A DNA stretch of 33,296 bases from a virus: the IMG/VR virus record IMGVR_UViG_3300044634_002449, positions 1-33,296 of that record; one strand, 5' to 3'. The notes under the pieces are model-generated. The model was not told the DNA's origin. It ran no database searches and was given only the letters and a program-made list of their open reading frames with translations. The first letter of the stretch is position 1. Each line of letters begins with the position of its first letter. Positions 1-23,568 of this stretch are shown here, piece by piece. A program made the translations under genes and the position numbers.

Positions 1-280
1 GTAGTCATTTTAACTACCTTTCTTAGTAAGACTTTCTTACTTTCTTTATACTATAAGCCTAACATGGGGCACTGACATTTTGGCTATCACAATTCGGACA
101 TGTCGGACATTTTGTAAGTTAATTTTAGAAATAGGCGTGAGATACATCACATTTATGGTCGCTCTATCCCATTTGTCCGTTTCTGTTTAGGTGTGTATCG
201 TACAAATAAAACCTATATTAACATTTTGGTAAATCTAAAAAATAGTTGACTACAATATTTTATATTGGTAAAATAAACAC
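1..280. other. Gene-free left-end region, probably a divergent promoter region
   Basis: I see no supported complete gene here. ACATTTTG occurs three times on the + strand (75-82, 107-114, 221-228), the first two 32 bp apart, and CGGACAT is directly repeated at 95 and 104 around the palindrome GACATGTC (97-104). TGTA-TCG-TACA lies at 194-204. On the - strand an ATG sits at 8-6, preceded by an AGAAAGG ribosome-site-like stretch and an ATGTCA-N17-TATAGT promoter-like pair, so a leftward gene may begin at position 8 and run out of the window; only its first codons are visible. The rightward promoter at 246-274 drives the gene at 281. The repeats could be operators for divergent control, which is inference. 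Confidence 0.4.
246..274 (+). promoter_or_regulatory. Sigma70-like promoter giving a leaderless mRNA
   Basis: TTGACT (246-251), 17-nt spacer, TAAAAT (269-274), with a TGG extended -10 (266-268). The -10 box ends 6 nt before the ATG at 281, so the expected transcription start coincides with the start codon. No Shine-Dalgarno sequence fits between them. The -35 lies in the longer motif TAGTTGACTA, which recurs near 720 and 1043 and, on the - strand, near 1789. Confidence 0.8.
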
Positions 281-393: not shown

Positions 394-467
394 GGAGACA
401 TAGCTTAGTTGGTTAAAGCCCCAAACTCATAATTTGGTAATCGTAGGTTCGAGTCCTACTGTCTCTA
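394..467 (+). tRNA. tRNA with CAT anticodon (elongator Met, or Ile2)
   Basis: A full cloverleaf can be drawn: acceptor 394-400 with 460-466 (first pair is a G-T wobble), D stem GCTT/AAGC around a 9-nt loop, anticodon stem CCAAA/TTTGG around loop CTCATAA, a 5-nt variable region, T stem GTAGG/CCTAC around TTCGAGT, and discriminator A467. No CCA end is encoded. The anticodon is CAT. The anticodon stem lacks the three G-C pairs of initiator tRNA, so this is elongator tRNA-Met or, if the wobble C is lysidine-modified, tRNA-Ile2. I cannot separate these by eye. Phage tRNAs usually supplement host decoding. Confidence 0.93.
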
Positions 468-487
468 CAGATATTTTTTAAAAGCTA

Positions 488-755: not shown

Positions 756-1037
756 ATGAAGTCTGAAAAGACGACGGATAGAACACGCAAAGCTTATTTG
801 GTTAAATATATCCAAGAGCTGAAGTCAAGTACTCCCTGTATGGATTGTAAGGAATCTTTCCCATACTATGTTATGGATTTTGATCACGTACGTGGGCGGA
901 AGCATAAGAATGTAATGGAACTTATTCCTACACTATCCAAGAAGATAATAGATCTAGAAATAGCCAAGTGTGAGATAGTTTGCTCAAATTGTCATAGAGT
1001 CAGAACTCATGAACGTAAATCTAATAAGTCTAAATAA
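756..1037 (+). CDS. HNH endonuclease
   Basis: This 93-aa protein has the compact layout of free-standing phage HNH nucleases: zinc knuckle half C28-x2-C31, the DHVRG core with D43 and catalytic H44, then C76-x2-C79 followed by H80 and H85. The family cuts DNA using one divalent metal in a beta-beta-alpha fold, with the cysteines holding a structural zinc. In phages such enzymes act as homing endonucleases or assist genome packaging. No terminase or intron is visible beside it, so a homing or independent role is as likely as packaging. The start is set by the leaderless promoter whose -10 ends 6 nt upstream. The basic tail (KSNKSK) is consistent with DNA binding. Confidence 0.88.
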   Translation: MKSEKTTDRTRKAYLVKYIQELKSSTPCMDCKESFPYYVMDFDHVRGRKHKNVMELIPTLSKKIIDLEIAKCEIVCSNCHRVRTHERKSNKSK

Positions 1038-1433: not shown

Positions 1434-1573
1434 ATGGGTAGTATCCCTTCTCCCGCCCCATTCCGCCTTGTCTGACCCTACGGGTCATAATATGGCTAAA
1501 GATGGCTTAGAGGGCCCACAGAGCAATTTAGAGGCATATCCTGGCAAATGGAGTATGAGAGGATGTCTCTTCT

Positions 1574-1602
1574 CGCCGAAGCACTTTTTTCGGGCGCACT
1601 TT
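1574..1602 (+). terminator. Possible rightward terminator of the small membrane-protein operon
   Basis: CGCCGAA (1574-1580) can pair with TTCGGGCG (1589-1596) with one bulged C around an 8-nt loop, and is followed by CACTTTT. The bulge and short T run make it a moderate terminator at best. Its place after three rightward genes and before the convergent leftward unit supports the call. Confidence 0.4.
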
Positions 1603-1623
1603 TAAATCGCACTATATATAAAT

Positions 1624-1639
1624 TGTTTCACGTGGAACA
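1624..1639. promoter_or_regulatory. parS-like ParB-binding site
   Basis: TGTTTCACGTGGAACA fits the near-universal bacterial chromosomal parS pattern TGTTnCACGTGnAACA at all fixed positions and differs from the fully symmetric TGTTTCACGTGAAACA at one base. ParB-family proteins bind such sites and spread to form a partition complex. No parA or parB is in this window, so the site would be read by a host ParB or by a phage ParB elsewhere. An exact match to 14 fixed bases is not expected by chance in 33 kb. It lies between two convergent terminators, in no gene. Confidence 0.75.
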
Positions 1640-1660
1640 TTGCCATCGCCGAACTTTAAA

Positions 1661-1801: not shown

Positions 1802-2017
1802 TTATTCTTTTTCTTGATCTGGGGTATATGCTGGATTAGGACCAAGAAGATATCCCTTTTCGTGATACTCAATCATCTTAGAGGTCTTTTCAGATCCAGC
1901 CACCTTATCAGATATCAGGGTCAGCATGTCATAAATTCTATGAAGCATGATGTAAGTAACCATAGGAAGATTCTCTTCTATAGTTCCGTTCTCATCTGGA
2001 ATGTTATCTTCAGTCAT
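1802..2017 (-). CDS. 71-aa hypothetical protein, last gene of the lysin operon
   Basis: The product is 71 residues, acidic at both ends, with an amphipathic middle (PMVTYIMLHRIYDMLTLI) that could be a helix or dimerisation segment but is not hydrophobic enough to call a membrane segment. I recognise no family. A GGGAG ribosome site precedes the ATG by about five bases. Its start overlaps the end of the 36-aa gene upstream by 8 nt, as expected in a tightly packed phage operon. The stop is followed by the small-RNA promoter and then a leftward terminator. Co-transcription with the lysin suggests a lysis or late role, which is inference only. Confidence 0.6.
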   Translation of the reverse strand: MTEDNIPDENGTIEENLPMVTYIMLHRIYDMLTLISDKVAGSEKTSKMIEYHEKGYLLGPNPAYTPDQEKE

Positions 2018-2337: not shown

Positions 2338-2892
2338 CTAATAGTCGAATTCATTTACGAATTCTTTAAATCTTTCCCCGTTAAAGGAAGACCATGATGA
2401 CCAATCTTTTCCGCCTTTAGTCATATAATACGTTATCTCTGAGTTTATTACTGGATCAAACAATAGAATGTTTGACTTTAATTCAAATTTTTCTTTACGA
2501 TCAATGCCGAGTTCACCCAACATATTAATCTGAAAAATTCCGTAGGAACTGTCTCCAGTTTTCCTGTTACCATTGTAAGCCATAGGCCTTGCATTGGATT
2601 CTGACTTAGCAATAGCCCAAGCCATTTTAAGGGCTTTTCCTTCAAAACCAACAGCTGATAAAAGTTCTTTTAGTTCTTTGTCTGTTAGATTCTCAGAAGG
2701 CTTGTACACAGTAGTGCTGTACTTCTCTAAGGTTTCTTTCTTTAGTTGTACCGTTGATTTTACAGGTACTTCTACCTGCAATGCTTGAGTTTCTGTTGGA
2801 CCAGGCTGGACTGTAAACAAGAATAATGTTATCATTCCTATATAAGACCAGTTATGGGCAACTTCGCTCAAACGTTCTTTGATTCTCTCCAT
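2338..2892 (-). CDS. Membrane-anchored lysozyme-like transglycosylase (endolysin)
   Basis: This is a 184-aa peptidoglycan hydrolase of the lytic-transglycosylase/lysozyme-like fold. A membrane or signal-anchor segment spans about residues 15-28, then a linker, then the catalytic domain from about 70. AIAKSESN carries the likely catalytic Glu (about residue 98) and GDSSYGIFQIN (about 113-123) is the signature that shapes the substrate cleft. It would cleave glycan strands of the host wall. The second ATG is chosen because AAAGGAGG lies 8 nt upstream of it and only 2 nt from the first. The N-terminal anchor suggests export without full dependence on a holin, as in signal-anchor-release endolysins, though no SAR-specific feature is proven. 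Confidence 0.83.
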   Translation of the reverse strand: MERIKERLSEVAHNWSYIGMITLFLFTVQPGPTETQALQVEVPVKSTVQLKKETLEKYSTTVYKPSENLTDKELKELLSAVGFEGKALKMAWAIAKSESNARPMAYNGNRKTGDSSYGIFQINMLGELGIDRKEKFELKSNILLFDPVINSEITYYMTKGGKDWSSWSSFNGERFKEFVNEFDY

Positions 2893-2925
2893 TGGCATTT
2901 CCTCCTTTAGAGATAACGAACTATA

Positions 2926-4075: not shown

Positions 4076-6010
4076 ATGTCAAGAACTATTAAAAACCCTT
4101 ATGAAAATTTTATTGCATTGTCAAGATATGCACGATGGATTCCAGAAGATAATCGTCGTGAAACATGGGGGGAAACTGTAGATAGATATTTTGACTACAT
4201 GTTAGAGCATTTAAAAAATAATAACAACTATATTCCAGATTTAAAATTAGTAGAAGAATTAAAAGAAGCAGTATATAATCGCAATGTTATGCCATCAATG
4301 AGATCGGTTATGACAGCAGGTGCCGCTTTAGATAGAGATCATGTAGCAGGATATAACTGCTCATTTATCCCAGTAGATTCACCAAGATCGTTTGACGAGA
4401 CAATGTATATACTTATGTGTGGCACTGGAGTAGGATTCTCTGTTGAATATAAATACGTTAACAAACTTCCTTCCATCCCAGAATCTTTTGAAAAGTCTAC
4501 AACCATTATTGTTGTTGAGGATTCTAAGTCTGGTTGGGCAAAAGCATTTCGTGAACTACTTGCACTTCTTTGGTCTGGCCAAATTCCTTCAATTGACGTA
4601 AGCAAGCTTCGTCCAGCAGGTGCAAGACTTAAGACTATGGGTGGAAGATCATCAGGACCGCAACCTTTAGTAAACCTATTTGATTTTACAATTGCAAAAT
4701 TTAAAACAGCGGCAGGTAGATCATTTAAACCAATTGAGGCACATGACATTATGTGCAAGATTGGAGAGATTGTAGTAGTTGGTGGAGTTAGAAGATCTGC
4801 ATTAATTTCTCTTTCTAATATTAATGATATTGAAATGGCACAAGCAAAAACTGGTAATTGGTGGGAACACAATCCACAACGTGCCCTTTCCAACAACTCT
4901 GTTGCGTATTCTCGCAAGCCAGAGATGGAGCAATTTATTGCAGAATGGAAATCGCTTTATGACTCAAAATCTGGAGAGCGTGGAATATACAATGTTGCAG
5001 CAGCACAAAAGCAAGCAGCAAAGTATGGACGCAGGGATCCTGAAATACATTATGGAACCAACCCTTGTTCGGAAATTATTCTCCGTCCTTATCAGTTTTG
5101 TAATCTTTCAGAAGTCGTACTACGTGAAAACGATACAAAGAAAGATATTGAAAGGAAAGTAGAGCTAGCCACTATTCTTGGAACATGGCAAGCAACCCTA
5201 ACAGACTTTAAGTATCTTCGCAAAATTTGGAAAGACAATACAGAGGAAGAAAGATTACTTGGAGTTTCTCTTACTGGTCAATTCGGACATAAGTTTATGT
5301 CTGGAAAAGAAGACCTAGTATCCCTAGAAGCATTCTTGATGACTCTCAGAGAAAAGGCTAGAGAGACAAATAAAAAAGAAGCGGGAAAGATTGGTATTCC
5401 AGAGTCTGCAGCTATTACATGCGTAAAGCCTTCTGGCACAGTATCTCAATTAGTTGGAGTATCTTCAGGAATGCATGCATGGCATTCTCCATATTACATT
5501 CGTACAGTTCGTGGTTCAAAAGGTGATCCAATATCTACATTCTTAAAAGAAGTTGGAATCCCAGTAGAAGATGATGTTATGAAGCCAAATGATACTTACG
5601 TATTTTCATTTCCAGTAAAAGCTCCAGAAGGTGCTGTAGTTAGAAATGATTTAACAGCAATTGAGCATTTAAATATTTGGCTAGTTTACCAACGTGCATG
5701 GTGTGAACACAAGCCTTCTATTACAGTTTCAGTAAAAGAAGATGAATGGATGGACGTAGGAGCTTGGGTATATAAGAATTTTGACGAAGTTTCTGGAATA
5801 TCATTTTTACCACATTCAGATCACTCATATAAGCAAGCTCCATACCAAGAAGTTTCAAAAGAAGAGTATGAGGAACTATTAAATAAAATGCCAGAGTCTA
5901 TTAGATGGGAAGATTTATCTTTTTATGAAACAGAAGATGGAACATCTACAAATGCCACCCTGGCATGCAGTTCAGACGGCAACTGCGAACTTGTAGACAT
6001 TTCTGTATAA
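4076..6010 (+). CDS. nrdJ: Adenosylcobalamin-dependent ribonucleotide reductase (class II)
   Basis: This 644-aa enzyme converts ribonucleoside triphosphates to deoxynucleotides for phage DNA synthesis using a cobalamin-derived radical, so it needs neither oxygen nor a second subunit. It matches the monomeric Lactobacillus-type class II enzyme carried by many phages. Key cysteines are visible: C95 in YNCSF, the radical-site C331 in NPCSE, and C342 in FCNLSE, eleven residues later as in the family, so the active-site disulfide pair would be C95 and C342. A C-terminal C631-x5-C637 pair fits the re-reducing tail. It is shorter than the roughly 740-aa bacterial prototype, as is usual in phages. 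The host or environment must supply B12. It has its own promoter. No thioredoxin or glutaredoxin gene is adjacent. Confidence 0.95.
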   Translation: MSRTIKNPYENFIALSRYARWIPEDNRRETWGETVDRYFDYMLEHLKNNNNYIPDLKLVEELKEAVYNRNVMPSMRSVMTAGAALDRDHVAGYNCSFIPVDSPRSFDETMYILMCGTGVGFSVEYKYVNKLPSIPESFEKSTTIIVVEDSKSGWAKAFRELLALLWSGQIPSIDVSKLRPAGARLKTMGGRSSGPQPLVNLFDFTIAKFKTAAGRSFKPIEAHDIMCKIGEIVVVGGVRRSALISLSNINDIEMAQAKTGNWWEHNPQRALSNNSVAYSRKPEMEQFIAEWKSLYDSKSGERGIYNVAAAQKQAAKYGRRDPEIHYGTNPCSEIILRPYQFCNLSEVVLRENDTKKDIERKVELATILGTWQATLTDFKYLRKIWKDNTEEERLLGVSLTGQFGHKFMSGKEDLVSLEAFLMTLREKARETNKKEAGKIGIPESAAITCVKPSGTVSQLVGVSSGMHAWHSPYYIRTVRGSKGDPISTFLKEVGIPVEDDVMKPNDTYVFSFPVKAPEGAVVRNDLTAIEHLNIWLVYQRAWCEHKPSITVSVKEDEWMDVGAWVYKNFDEVSGISFLPHSDHSYKQAPYQEVSKEEYEELLNKMPESIRWEDLSFYETEDGTSTNATLACSSDGNCELVDISV

Positions 6011-8853: not shown

Positions 8854-10781
8854 GCGTAGTAATAAAAACAAAAAGAGGAACCACAGAACAGTGGAATAGC
8901 TCTACAACTCCACTTCAAATTGGAGAACTTGGATTAGACATAACTCTTAATAAATTAAAAGCAGGAAATGGTACCAGTCTTTGGCAAAATCTTCCCTTTC
9001 TTACATCTGATGGTGGCGGAGACACTGGTGATATAACTTTTGACGGAGTTCAAATTATTGGTGCTGGAACAGCATCTGGAGATGGTTACGGACTAGGAAC
9101 ATTAGAGATTGTACCAGATGGAAATATTACTTCAGATCAGTATTTAATTGTTGATCCTACCGCACCAAACCATATCCATATTCGTGCAGGTGGAACACAA
9201 GATGCTTCTACTGCAGACCTATTTCTTGGCGGAGAAAGAAACAATGTTCGTGTTTCAGATGGCGGAAGAATTGTAAGTGTTAGCACAAGACCAAATACAG
9301 TTATTAACACATATACAAATCAAAATACAATAAGTAACACTTCTTTTGTAACAAGTAATACAGCAAATATTTATATAGGGGATACATTATTTTATGTAGG
9401 CGGAGATATAGTAACTGTTGATTCAATTACACAGGACTCACCAAGTGCTGGTCTACAAACTATCACAGCAAACTTAAATGGAGCACCAGCCTCATTTGTT
9501 GCAGGAGAACCGCATATATTTAGCCATGAAGAAGAATTCGAAAATTATTGGCAGTTTGGAGCAGATGGTGTTCTGTCTGGTCCAGCAATGGGTTCAGTTG
9601 CCGTAAATGGACTTTACAATAATTCATCTACAGAAAGCAACCTCTTGTTAGGAAGCTCTGAAAAAATAGTTATCGCTGGAGCCAATGGAGAATTTTTAAA
9701 TGATGCCTCTGTTGCATCAAATCAAATTGCAACTATGGGAGATATTTCAGATGCAAATGATTATACGGACACTGCAATTTCAACTCTTGGAGACACTATA
9801 GATTCTGGATATATTCCTATTACAGAAAAAGGAACTGCTGGAGGAGTAGCATCTTTAGATCTTAGTGGCAAAATTCCATTAGAACAAATTGACACAAGTA
9901 GTCTTATAGGTCCAACAGGACCAACAGGGCCACAAGGCGATATTGGTCCAACGGGAGCAGCTGGTGACGCATTTGGAATTTATTATTTAGGGAATTATAA
10001 TCCATTATCTGGTTACGTACCAGATATTGCAGTAGTAAGAGGTTCAGACGGACAACTGTATCTTGCTAAAGCTAGTGGACAACTGGGCGATCCAATTGAT
10101 TATGTAAGTAATGGACAATGGGAAATATGGATACCTAAAGGACCAACAGGCCCTACAGGCCCATCAGGTGCAGATAGCACAGTTGCAGGCCCATCAGGTC
10201 CATCAGGACCATCAGGTCCACAAGGTGACGCAGGTCCGACAGGACCAACAGGTGCACAAGGTGACGCAGGTCCGACAGGACCAACAGGTGCAGATAGCAC
10301 AGTTCCTGGACCAACAGGACCAACAGGTCCACAAGGTGACGCAGGTCCAACAGGACCAACAGGTCCAACTGGACTACCTGGAGGAATAACTCTTACCGTA
10401 ACAAACTCTGGCAGCGGAGCTTATGTAATAAATGGATCTAATAATCCAACTCTTTCTTTTATTCGTGGACACAGATATATAATTAACGTAAATGCTTCTG
10501 GCCACCCATTTTGGATACAAACAGTTTCAGGCGCTTATAGTTCAGGAAATATTTACAGCACTGGCGTTACAAATGGCGGAACAGATAACGGAACAATTAT
10601 ATTTGAAGTTCCTTATGATGCACCACAACTTTATTATGCATGTCAATTCCACTCATCAATGTCTGGTTCTATAACAGTTTCCGATCTAGGACCATCAGGC
10701 CCATCAGGCCCATCAGGGCCAGCAGGGCCAGCAGGAGGAAGTGAAGGATCAGATATTATGAATATCATGGAAGCATGGTAA
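8850..10781 (+). CDS. Collagen-like tail fibre with a cupredoxin-like domain
   Basis: This 643-aa fibre starts with the attachment module [17 protein letters not shown] ([17 protein letters not shown] at about 26-42), followed by a beta shaft. Collagen-like G-x-y runs occur at about residues 354-370, 430-512 and 612-630. Between the last two is a domain of about 100 residues with the cupredoxin pattern: H552 in SGHPFW, then C598-x2-H601-x2-M604 in [12 protein letters not shown]. His, Cys, His and Met are the ligands of blue-copper proteins, although the H-to-M spacing is shorter than in plastocyanin. The domain could bind copper or be a structural relic. Similar YYxCxxHxxM domains occur, as I recall, in cyanophage virion proteins. 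Its place between collagen arms suggests an exposed fibre knob. Confidence 0.82.
10138..10383 (+). repeat. Tandem collagen-coding repeats
   Basis: Nearly exact direct repeats built on CCAACAGGACCAACAGGT-like units encode G-P-T-G-P-T and G-P-Q-G-D-A triplets. A block beginning CAGGTCCGACAGGACCAACA is present twice at about 10230-10295. Such repeats are prone to slippage, so fibre length may vary between relatives. Confidence 0.8.
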
Positions 10782-21972: not shown

Positions 21973-23568
21973 ATGAGTTTAGACATAAACAAAGTAGTAA
22001 TTGTTGGTGGTGGTTCCGCTGGGTGGATGTCGGCAGCAACTTTTATAAGAACTTTTCCAGATAAAGAAATTATAGTTATTGAATCACCAGACTACCCTAT
22101 AGTAGGAGTAGGTGAGTCTACACTTGGAAGCATTACTGAGTGGACTAATTACATAGGTTTAGACGAAAAAGATTTTATGCCAGCAACAGATGCTGTTTAT
22201 AAAATGAGTATTAAATTTACTGATTTCTATAAAGAAGATTCTGGAAGTTTTCATTACCCATTTGGAGATCCATTTCTTGAAGGAACATACAATGGTCTAA
22301 ATGACTGGTATGTAAAAAAAGCTTTATATCCAAATTTAGATGTATCAGATTATGCCAAAACATTTTTCCCAGCACTAACATTAGCAGAACAAAATAAACT
22401 ATCATGGAATAAATCTGGTAGACTTTATAATTTTAATTTTAAAAAAGACGTAGCCTATCATTTTGACGCTACAAAATTTGGTATATGGCTAAAAAATAAT
22501 TATTGTATTCCAAGAGGCGTTAAAGTTTTACCATTAACTGTTAATGAAGTTAAATTAAATGAAGATGGCGTAGAAAGTTTAATTTTAAGTAATGGAGATT
22601 CAATATCTGCAGACCTTTTTATAGACTGTACTGGATGGAAGAGCCTACTTCTTGGAGAAGCATTAAACGAGTCTTTTGATGATTATTCTCATCAGCTTCC
22701 AAATAATCGTGCATGGGCAACAAGAATTCCTTATACGGATATCGAAAAAGAAATGGAGCCATTTACAAACTGTACCGCTATAGAAAATGGATGGGTTTGG
22801 AATATTCCTTCATGGGAAAGAATAGGAACTGGGTATGTATATTCAGATAAATATGTTACGCCAGAAGAAGCATTAGTAGAATTTAAAAATTATTTACGTT
22901 CTGATAAAATGACTATTCCAGATTCTAATAGAGATGTAGATTCTTTTGAGTATAAAGATATTAAGTTTAGAATAGGAATCCATAATAGGGTTTGGGTAAA
23001 GAATGTAGTAGCAATTGGTTTGTCTGCTGGATTTATTGAGCCGCTAGAATCAAATGGATTATTTACAGTACATAAATTTTTAATGAAACTTATGAAATCT
23101 TTAAATAGAGGATCAGCAAATCAGTGGGATAAAGATGCATTTAATATAGCTTCAAGAATGGTTTACCTGGAGTTCAAGGATTTTGTAGCAATGCACTATG
23201 CCTTATCAAATAGAACCAAAACAAAATATTGGCAAGATATAGCAAAAAGATCTTTTAATTTACCAATGAAAGATGAAAATCCATTAACACCTATGACGTT
23301 TACAGACTTGGCTGCAAGAAAAATAAATATAAATAGATATGAACCAAATGCTGGAATGAACTGCATCGCTACTGGAATGAATTATTTTCCAGTTGATAAA
23401 ATGACAATTACTGGTTGGGAGCATGCAGAAGGAGTAAACTATTATAAAGAATGTGAGCTAGCTTTTAAAAATTGGGAACTTATGAGAAAAGATTGGCAGG
23501 ACGAAGCAGATTCATCTCCTACAATGTATCAATGGCTAAAAGATAATAGGCACAATGATAAAGCCTAA
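21973..23568 (+). CDS. Flavin-dependent halogenase (tryptophan-halogenase family)
   Basis: This 531-aa enzyme should use reduced FAD, oxygen and a halide to halogenate an electron-rich substrate. The dinucleotide-binding GGGSAGW (12-18) is at the N-terminus, VGVGEST (44-50) follows, the conserved lysine that guides hypohalous acid is K77 in YKMSIKF, the W274-x-W-x-I-P279 family signature is intact, and EPLES carries E359 and S360, matching the second catalytic residue of PrnA-type enzymes. Length is normal and no frameshift is seen. The substrate is unknown. A flavin reductase is not encoded nearby and would come from the host. Cyanophage halogenases of this family are known, so phage carriage has precedent. 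The gene has its own promoter and overlaps the next gene. Confidence 0.93.
   Translation: MSLDINKVVIVGGGSAGWMSAATFIRTFPDKEIIVIESPDYPIVGVGESTLGSITEWTNYIGLDEKDFMPATDAVYKMSIKFTDFYKEDSGSFHYPFGDPFLEGTYNGLNDWYVKKALYPNLDVSDYAKTFFPALTLAEQNKLSWNKSGRLYNFNFKKDVAYHFDATKFGIWLKNNYCIPRGVKVLPLTVNEVKLNEDGVESLILSNGDSISADLFIDCTGWKSLLLGEALNESFDDYSHQLPNNRAWATRIPYTDIEKEMEPFTNCTAIENGWVWNIPSWERIGTGYVYSDKYVTPEEALVEFKNYLRSDKMTIPDSNRDVDSFEYKDIKFRIGIHNRVWVKNVVAIGLSAGFIEPLESNGLFTVHKFLMKLMKSLNRGSANQWDKDAFNIASRMVYLEFKDFVAMHYALSNRTKTKYWQDIAKRSFNLPMKDENPLTPMTFTDLAARKININRYEPNAGMNCIATGMNYFPVDKMTITGWEHAEGVNYYKECELAFKNWELMRKDWQDEADSSPTMYQWLKDNRHNDKA

Follow-up and report, generated by a model that had tools for sequence, protein, structure and literature searches.

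A chromosomal-type parS site on a ParB-less Stanwilliamsviridae-like actinophage, probably read by host ParB

The stretch of viral DNA analysed here (IMG/VR record IMGVR_UViG_3300044634_002449, 33,296 nucleotides, referred to as the window) contains a 16-bp sequence with the form of a bacterial chromosomal parS site. From its sequence and its recurrence in related phages, we infer that it is probably a chromosomal-type parS carried by an actinophage without ParB and read, to the benefit of the phage, by the ParB protein of the host. The site is as follows:

1624..1639, strand not applicable: parS-like site TGTTTCACGTGGAACA, an exact match to TGTTNCACGTGNAACA

Comparison with the motif determined that 14 of the 14 fixed positions of TGTTNCACGTGNAACA are matched by TGTTTCACGTGGAACA, which places the site among the chromosomal-type parS sites by its 16-bp sequence and bears out the first-pass annotation, where a chromosomal-type parS in phage non-coding DNA had been claimed. 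When the whole record was scanned this was the single exact copy in the 33,296 bases, the runners-up having 3 mismatches, and by our own arithmetic a 14-base exact match is expected ~33,281/4^14 = 1e-4 times per record. The site differs from a bacterial chromosomal parS (ParABS) in that it lies on a phage, in a single copy and with no oriC nearby, and searches for ParB_N and ParA in the window and its relatives found no parAB on the same replicon. The same annotation was correct that the window encodes neither ParA nor ParB: no ParB_N or ParA domain was found in it, and among relatives' records, many of which are fragments, ParB_N was found in 0 of 71, and ParA (AAA_31) and tyrosine integrase each in 0 of 25 (up to 114 kb). 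One relative of 109,968 bp (G042) has the site and lacks ParB. P1 and the extrachromosomal mycobacteriophages encode their own ParA and ParB with dissimilar sites. The window phage resembles these phage-encoded ParABS systems in having a centromere-like site on a phage genome, but it lacks the ParA and ParB genes that would make it one of them.

Gene content and order mark the window as part of the genome of a large Stanwilliamsviridae-like actinophage, whose hosts are probably freshwater actinobacteria. The features used in placing it and in finding its relatives are listed below, with a slash marking the end of the direct terminal repeat (DTR):

154..198, plus strand: signal marking where the long direct terminal repeat ends on the right, TATGGTCGCTCTATC...GTGTGTAT/CGTACAAAT, the cut being expected after 198 by homology
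394..468, plus strand: tRNA-Met (CAT)
2338..2898, minus strand: 186-aa protein, position matching the lysis/transglycosylase genes of Streptomyces relatives
4076..6010, plus strand: ribonucleotide reductase, RNR (phrog_367), marker for finding relatives

The order glycosyltransferase, RNR, structural genes and portal is common to the window and the Stanwilliamsviridae (Streptomyces BE-type phages), the portal is ~60% identical to that of the Streptomyces phages, and the DTR-end signal is also shared. The IMG/VR entry has no end repeats. A direct terminal repeat is present in 10 of the 10 complete Streptomyces relatives fetched, and in all ten its right end reads TATGGGCGCACTA, ~44 bases and then AT/C[AG]T. 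Freshwater relatives have this signal too, as does the window at 154-198, so positions 1-198 are, by homology, probably the end of the terminal repeat, which would place parS 1.43 kb inside the unique left arm. In the form TATGGGCGCACTA...~44 nt...TAT/CATACA...TAACATTT this signal shows where genomes end in fragments from metagenomes. The complete Streptomyces genomes inspected differ from the window in having neither parS (0 of 10 with a site of ≤1 mismatch) nor the conserved element described below. Of 26 virus records, 13 have WhiB genes, an indication that the host is an actinobacterium. A 110-kb relative (L515, G044 contig 31, CAINGU010000031.1) was binned in a cyanobacterial MAG; the phage contig itself carries WhiB, which argues for an actinobacterial host despite the bin. 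In a Corynebacterium, of the same phylum, ParB binds ten chromosomal parS sites (PMC7083940). Two further observations concern gene content: a tryptophan halogenase-like gene (phrog_2928) lies at 21973-23568 among tail-fibre genes of the window, and in L161 and other relatives the parS element is directly followed by a gene whose start is of the same kind.

The site in the window adjoins a conserved element that served as the reference point for the comparison of relatives:

1566..1620, plus strand: non-coding element TCTCTTCTCGCCGAAGCACTTTTTTCGGGCGCACTTTTAAATCGCACTATATATA, directional and conserved, present in clade loci as 87 distinct copies

This element is also written TCTTCTCGCCGACGCACTTTTTTTCGCACTATAT / CGCCGACGCACTTTTTTTCGCACTATAT, and in freshwater relatives it always stands ahead of the RNR block. 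It shares CGCACTATAT with the terminal-repeat end signal. A reading of the element as the terminal repeat's own right end was abandoned, since the true DTR-end signal is at 154-198. Relatives were collected by an RNR search, which gave 80 close ones, with more added from a scan for the element and a search with the neighbouring 186-aa protein. Distinct element copies in clade loci were counted, and a site was called parS-like when it had ≤1 mismatch and lay within 400 bp of the element. By this definition 29 of the 87 distinct copies have a parS-like site, five of them as exact matches; about two thirds have none, and sites with exactly 2 mismatches accompany 0 of the 87. In a control with 299 shuffled palindromes the mean was 0.003 and the maximum 1, as only a single palindrome scored, and it did so once. 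Sites inside a structural gene (G039), inside a collagen-like gene (L026) and on MAG contigs were not counted as evidence.

The site has at least 4 placements relative to the element (about -165/-168, -54, -34 to -47, and on its right side). On an RNR tree of 62 rows its presence and absence need at least 11 changes, at least 7 of them forced by well-supported branches, and with a tree built from the 186-aa protein the number is 10. The site has also diverged less than the DNA around it, with a difference of 0.094 vs 0.32/0.37 for the flanks in the right-side group and of 0.107 vs 0.53/0.18 in the -54 group, and L133 differs from L130 by a clean 20-base indel that contains it. Taken together, the placements, the changes on the trees, the faster divergence of the flanks and the indel indicate that the site is a recurrently gained or lost, selected unit. 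The first-pass annotation had named recurrence of the 16-mer in relatives, the presence of parA and parB, and extra parS copies as checks. The site does recur, and the identical allele TGTTTCACGTGGAACA is found in the siblings L404, L437, L438 and L442; the relatives' larger records again gave no parA or parB, and extra copies failed to appear, as clade genomes have one site each and never an array.

The site at 1624-1639 is not a product of chance. That the sites are a chance resemblance kept by common descent is scarcely credible: the motif is short and the non-coding DNA AT-rich, but the shuffled-motif control contradicts this, as do the several placements, the repeated changes on the tree and the all-or-nothing distribution.

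The alleles within the clade are mostly asymmetric. In 20 of the 28 distinct cores the centre is TG or CA, and in the other 8 it is CG; those with TG or CA read CATGTG or CACATG in place of CACGTG, which leaves one perfect half site. The perfect palindrome TGTTTCACGTGAAACA is absent from these 28 cores and is the commonest form in IMG/VR overall (82 of 145 among the matches listed). In 138 of these 145 listed matches the two free positions read Y..R, as in true parS. Phage alleles besides that of the window include TGTTTCATGTGAAACA and TGTTTCACGTGAAACC, and near-identical siblings carry different one-step variants (L436 vs L437; L243 vs L297). Each clade allele is one or two steps from TGTTTCACGTGAAACA, and some sibling variants are exact inversions of one another. 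In each variant checked at least one intact half site, GTTTCAC or GTTCCAC, is kept. Half-site binding by chromosomal ParB has been reported in P. aeruginosa (PMC7022226).

The closest known parallel is the Bacillus phage phi29 (L552, Salasmaviridae), which has four exact copies of TGTTTCACGTGGAACA at 10445, 15903, 17243 and 18760; B103 has two sites, and the Bacillus thuringiensis relative KonjoTrouble has no copies of TGTTTCACGTGGAACA. Host Spo0J (ParB) is reported to trap the phi29 genome in spores (PMC9437464, citing Meijer 2005). Like the window phage, phi29 carries the identical 16-mer, is virulent and has no ParB of its own, so the window site probably belongs with the phi29-type phage parS. 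One copy in phi29, the third, likewise precedes convergent terminators, beginning right after the gene 16 stop. The two differ in that three of the four phi29 copies lie inside genes, whereas the window phage has a single copy, in non-coding DNA; in that the host of phi29 is spore-forming, whereas the hosts of the window clade are presumably non-sporulating; and in that the window phage is a 110-kb-class actinophage of another family whose clade sites are often TG/CA-centred. The phi29-like contigs L383 and L427 have TG/CA-centred sites beside likely terminators. Outside the clade, 36 of 41 parS-bearing IMG/VR records of at least 30 kb have no ParB_N match. Several unrelated phage lineages (L376/L379/L381, L332/L338/L393, L373/L388, L383/L427) carry TGTTTCAYRTGAAACA, often in non-coding or terminator-adjacent positions, and their records contain no ParB. 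In the open-licence literature, phi29 was the one ParB-less phage for which published work on parS was found.

The surroundings of the site bear on what it does, and they include the following features:

756..1037, plus strand: HNH endonuclease gene (phrog_3106), left neighbour of the site
1640..1645, plus strand: TTGCCA, -35-like promoter box, by sequence comparison, with the -10 lost in the window
1702-1665, minus strand: strong intrinsic terminator of the minus-strand genes, -25.1 kcal/mol, z -5.5
1802..2017, minus strand: 71-aa protein (phrog_12271), right neighbour, convergent with the site

It had been claimed that the site lies between two convergent terminators, where it would be protected from transcription. 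The minus-strand terminator is indeed strong, but its plus-strand counterpart, a hairpin at 1574-1596, is weak, with z -0.63, and is part of the conserved element. The idea of protection is not supported either, as a sigma-70-like promoter (TTGCCA-17-TATAAT/TATACT) and then tRNA genes come after this site in the siblings L436, L437 and L442. Since the window has lost the -10 and the tRNA genes that these siblings keep past the site, its convergent-terminator setting is derived and is not the reason for the site. An open reading frame at 1548-1781 that spans the site was treated as no more than an open frame, the siblings having the promoter and tRNA there.

This promoter is also the ground for the alternative that survives best, in which the palindrome is a parS look-alike and serves as an operator, through which a transcription regulator of the phage or its host controls the downstream tRNA operon. 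In the right-side group (L404, L437, L436, L200, L127, L243) the site directly adjoins a -35 box (TTGCCA/TTGCTA) that is spaced 17 bases from TATAAT/TATACT and stands before tRNA genes, and the variable centre (CG/TG/CA) is unusual for parS. We consider an operator unlikely, as no such promoter stands beside the -54, -40 and -168 placements, L126 has the promoter without the site, the window has the site without the -10, and five distinct copies match parS exactly. It is quite improbable that the site acts as a decoy, titrating host ParB or disturbing host segregation or SMC loading in aid of takeover. Phage genomes do reach many copies late in infection and the site requires no phage protein, but a single site per genome, never an array, makes the titration raised by the first-pass annotation unlikely, and a sponge would need the reverse of these weakened, asymmetric alleles. 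The site is very improbable as part of a packaging or replication signal bound by a phage terminase or initiator, even though the DTR right end is 1.43 kb away and the adjoining element shares CGCACTATAT with that end. The DTR-end signal lies elsewhere (154-198) and is complete without parS in all relatives, and most genomes lack the site, L126 and L130 being examples from nature.

Reading by host ParB is the explanation we prefer; counted against it are the asymmetry of most clade sites, the two thirds of element copies that lack parS and the ten complete Streptomyces relatives without a site. As many relatives carry the site in several independent positions, as in phi29, the virus probably borrows the segregation protein of its host. 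In the proposed mechanism host ParB-CTP would load at the phage parS and slide onto the adjoining phage DNA, linking it to the ParA/SMC machinery of the host. This would bring the phage genome to the origin region of the host and, in infections with slow or deferred lysis, let it be shared out when the cell divides, in the way that the host's Spo0J serves phi29. The benefit would most likely be the persistence, positioning or sharing out of an unintegrated genome. More tentatively, and somewhat short of an even chance, capture of the host centromere may be a strategy that recurs among virulent phages without ParB whose hosts are not spore formers, with many lineages independently gaining a single imperfect parS near the genome-end region and the host ParB/ParA/SMC proteins positioning or sharing out the unintegrated genome in slow or deferred infection. 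Sister phages with and without the site provide natural controls. If host ParB does serve these sites, the phi29-Spo0J case would be generalised to a large clade and to non-sporulating hosts, and abundant freshwater viruses without lysogeny genes could persist in dividing, slow-growing cells.
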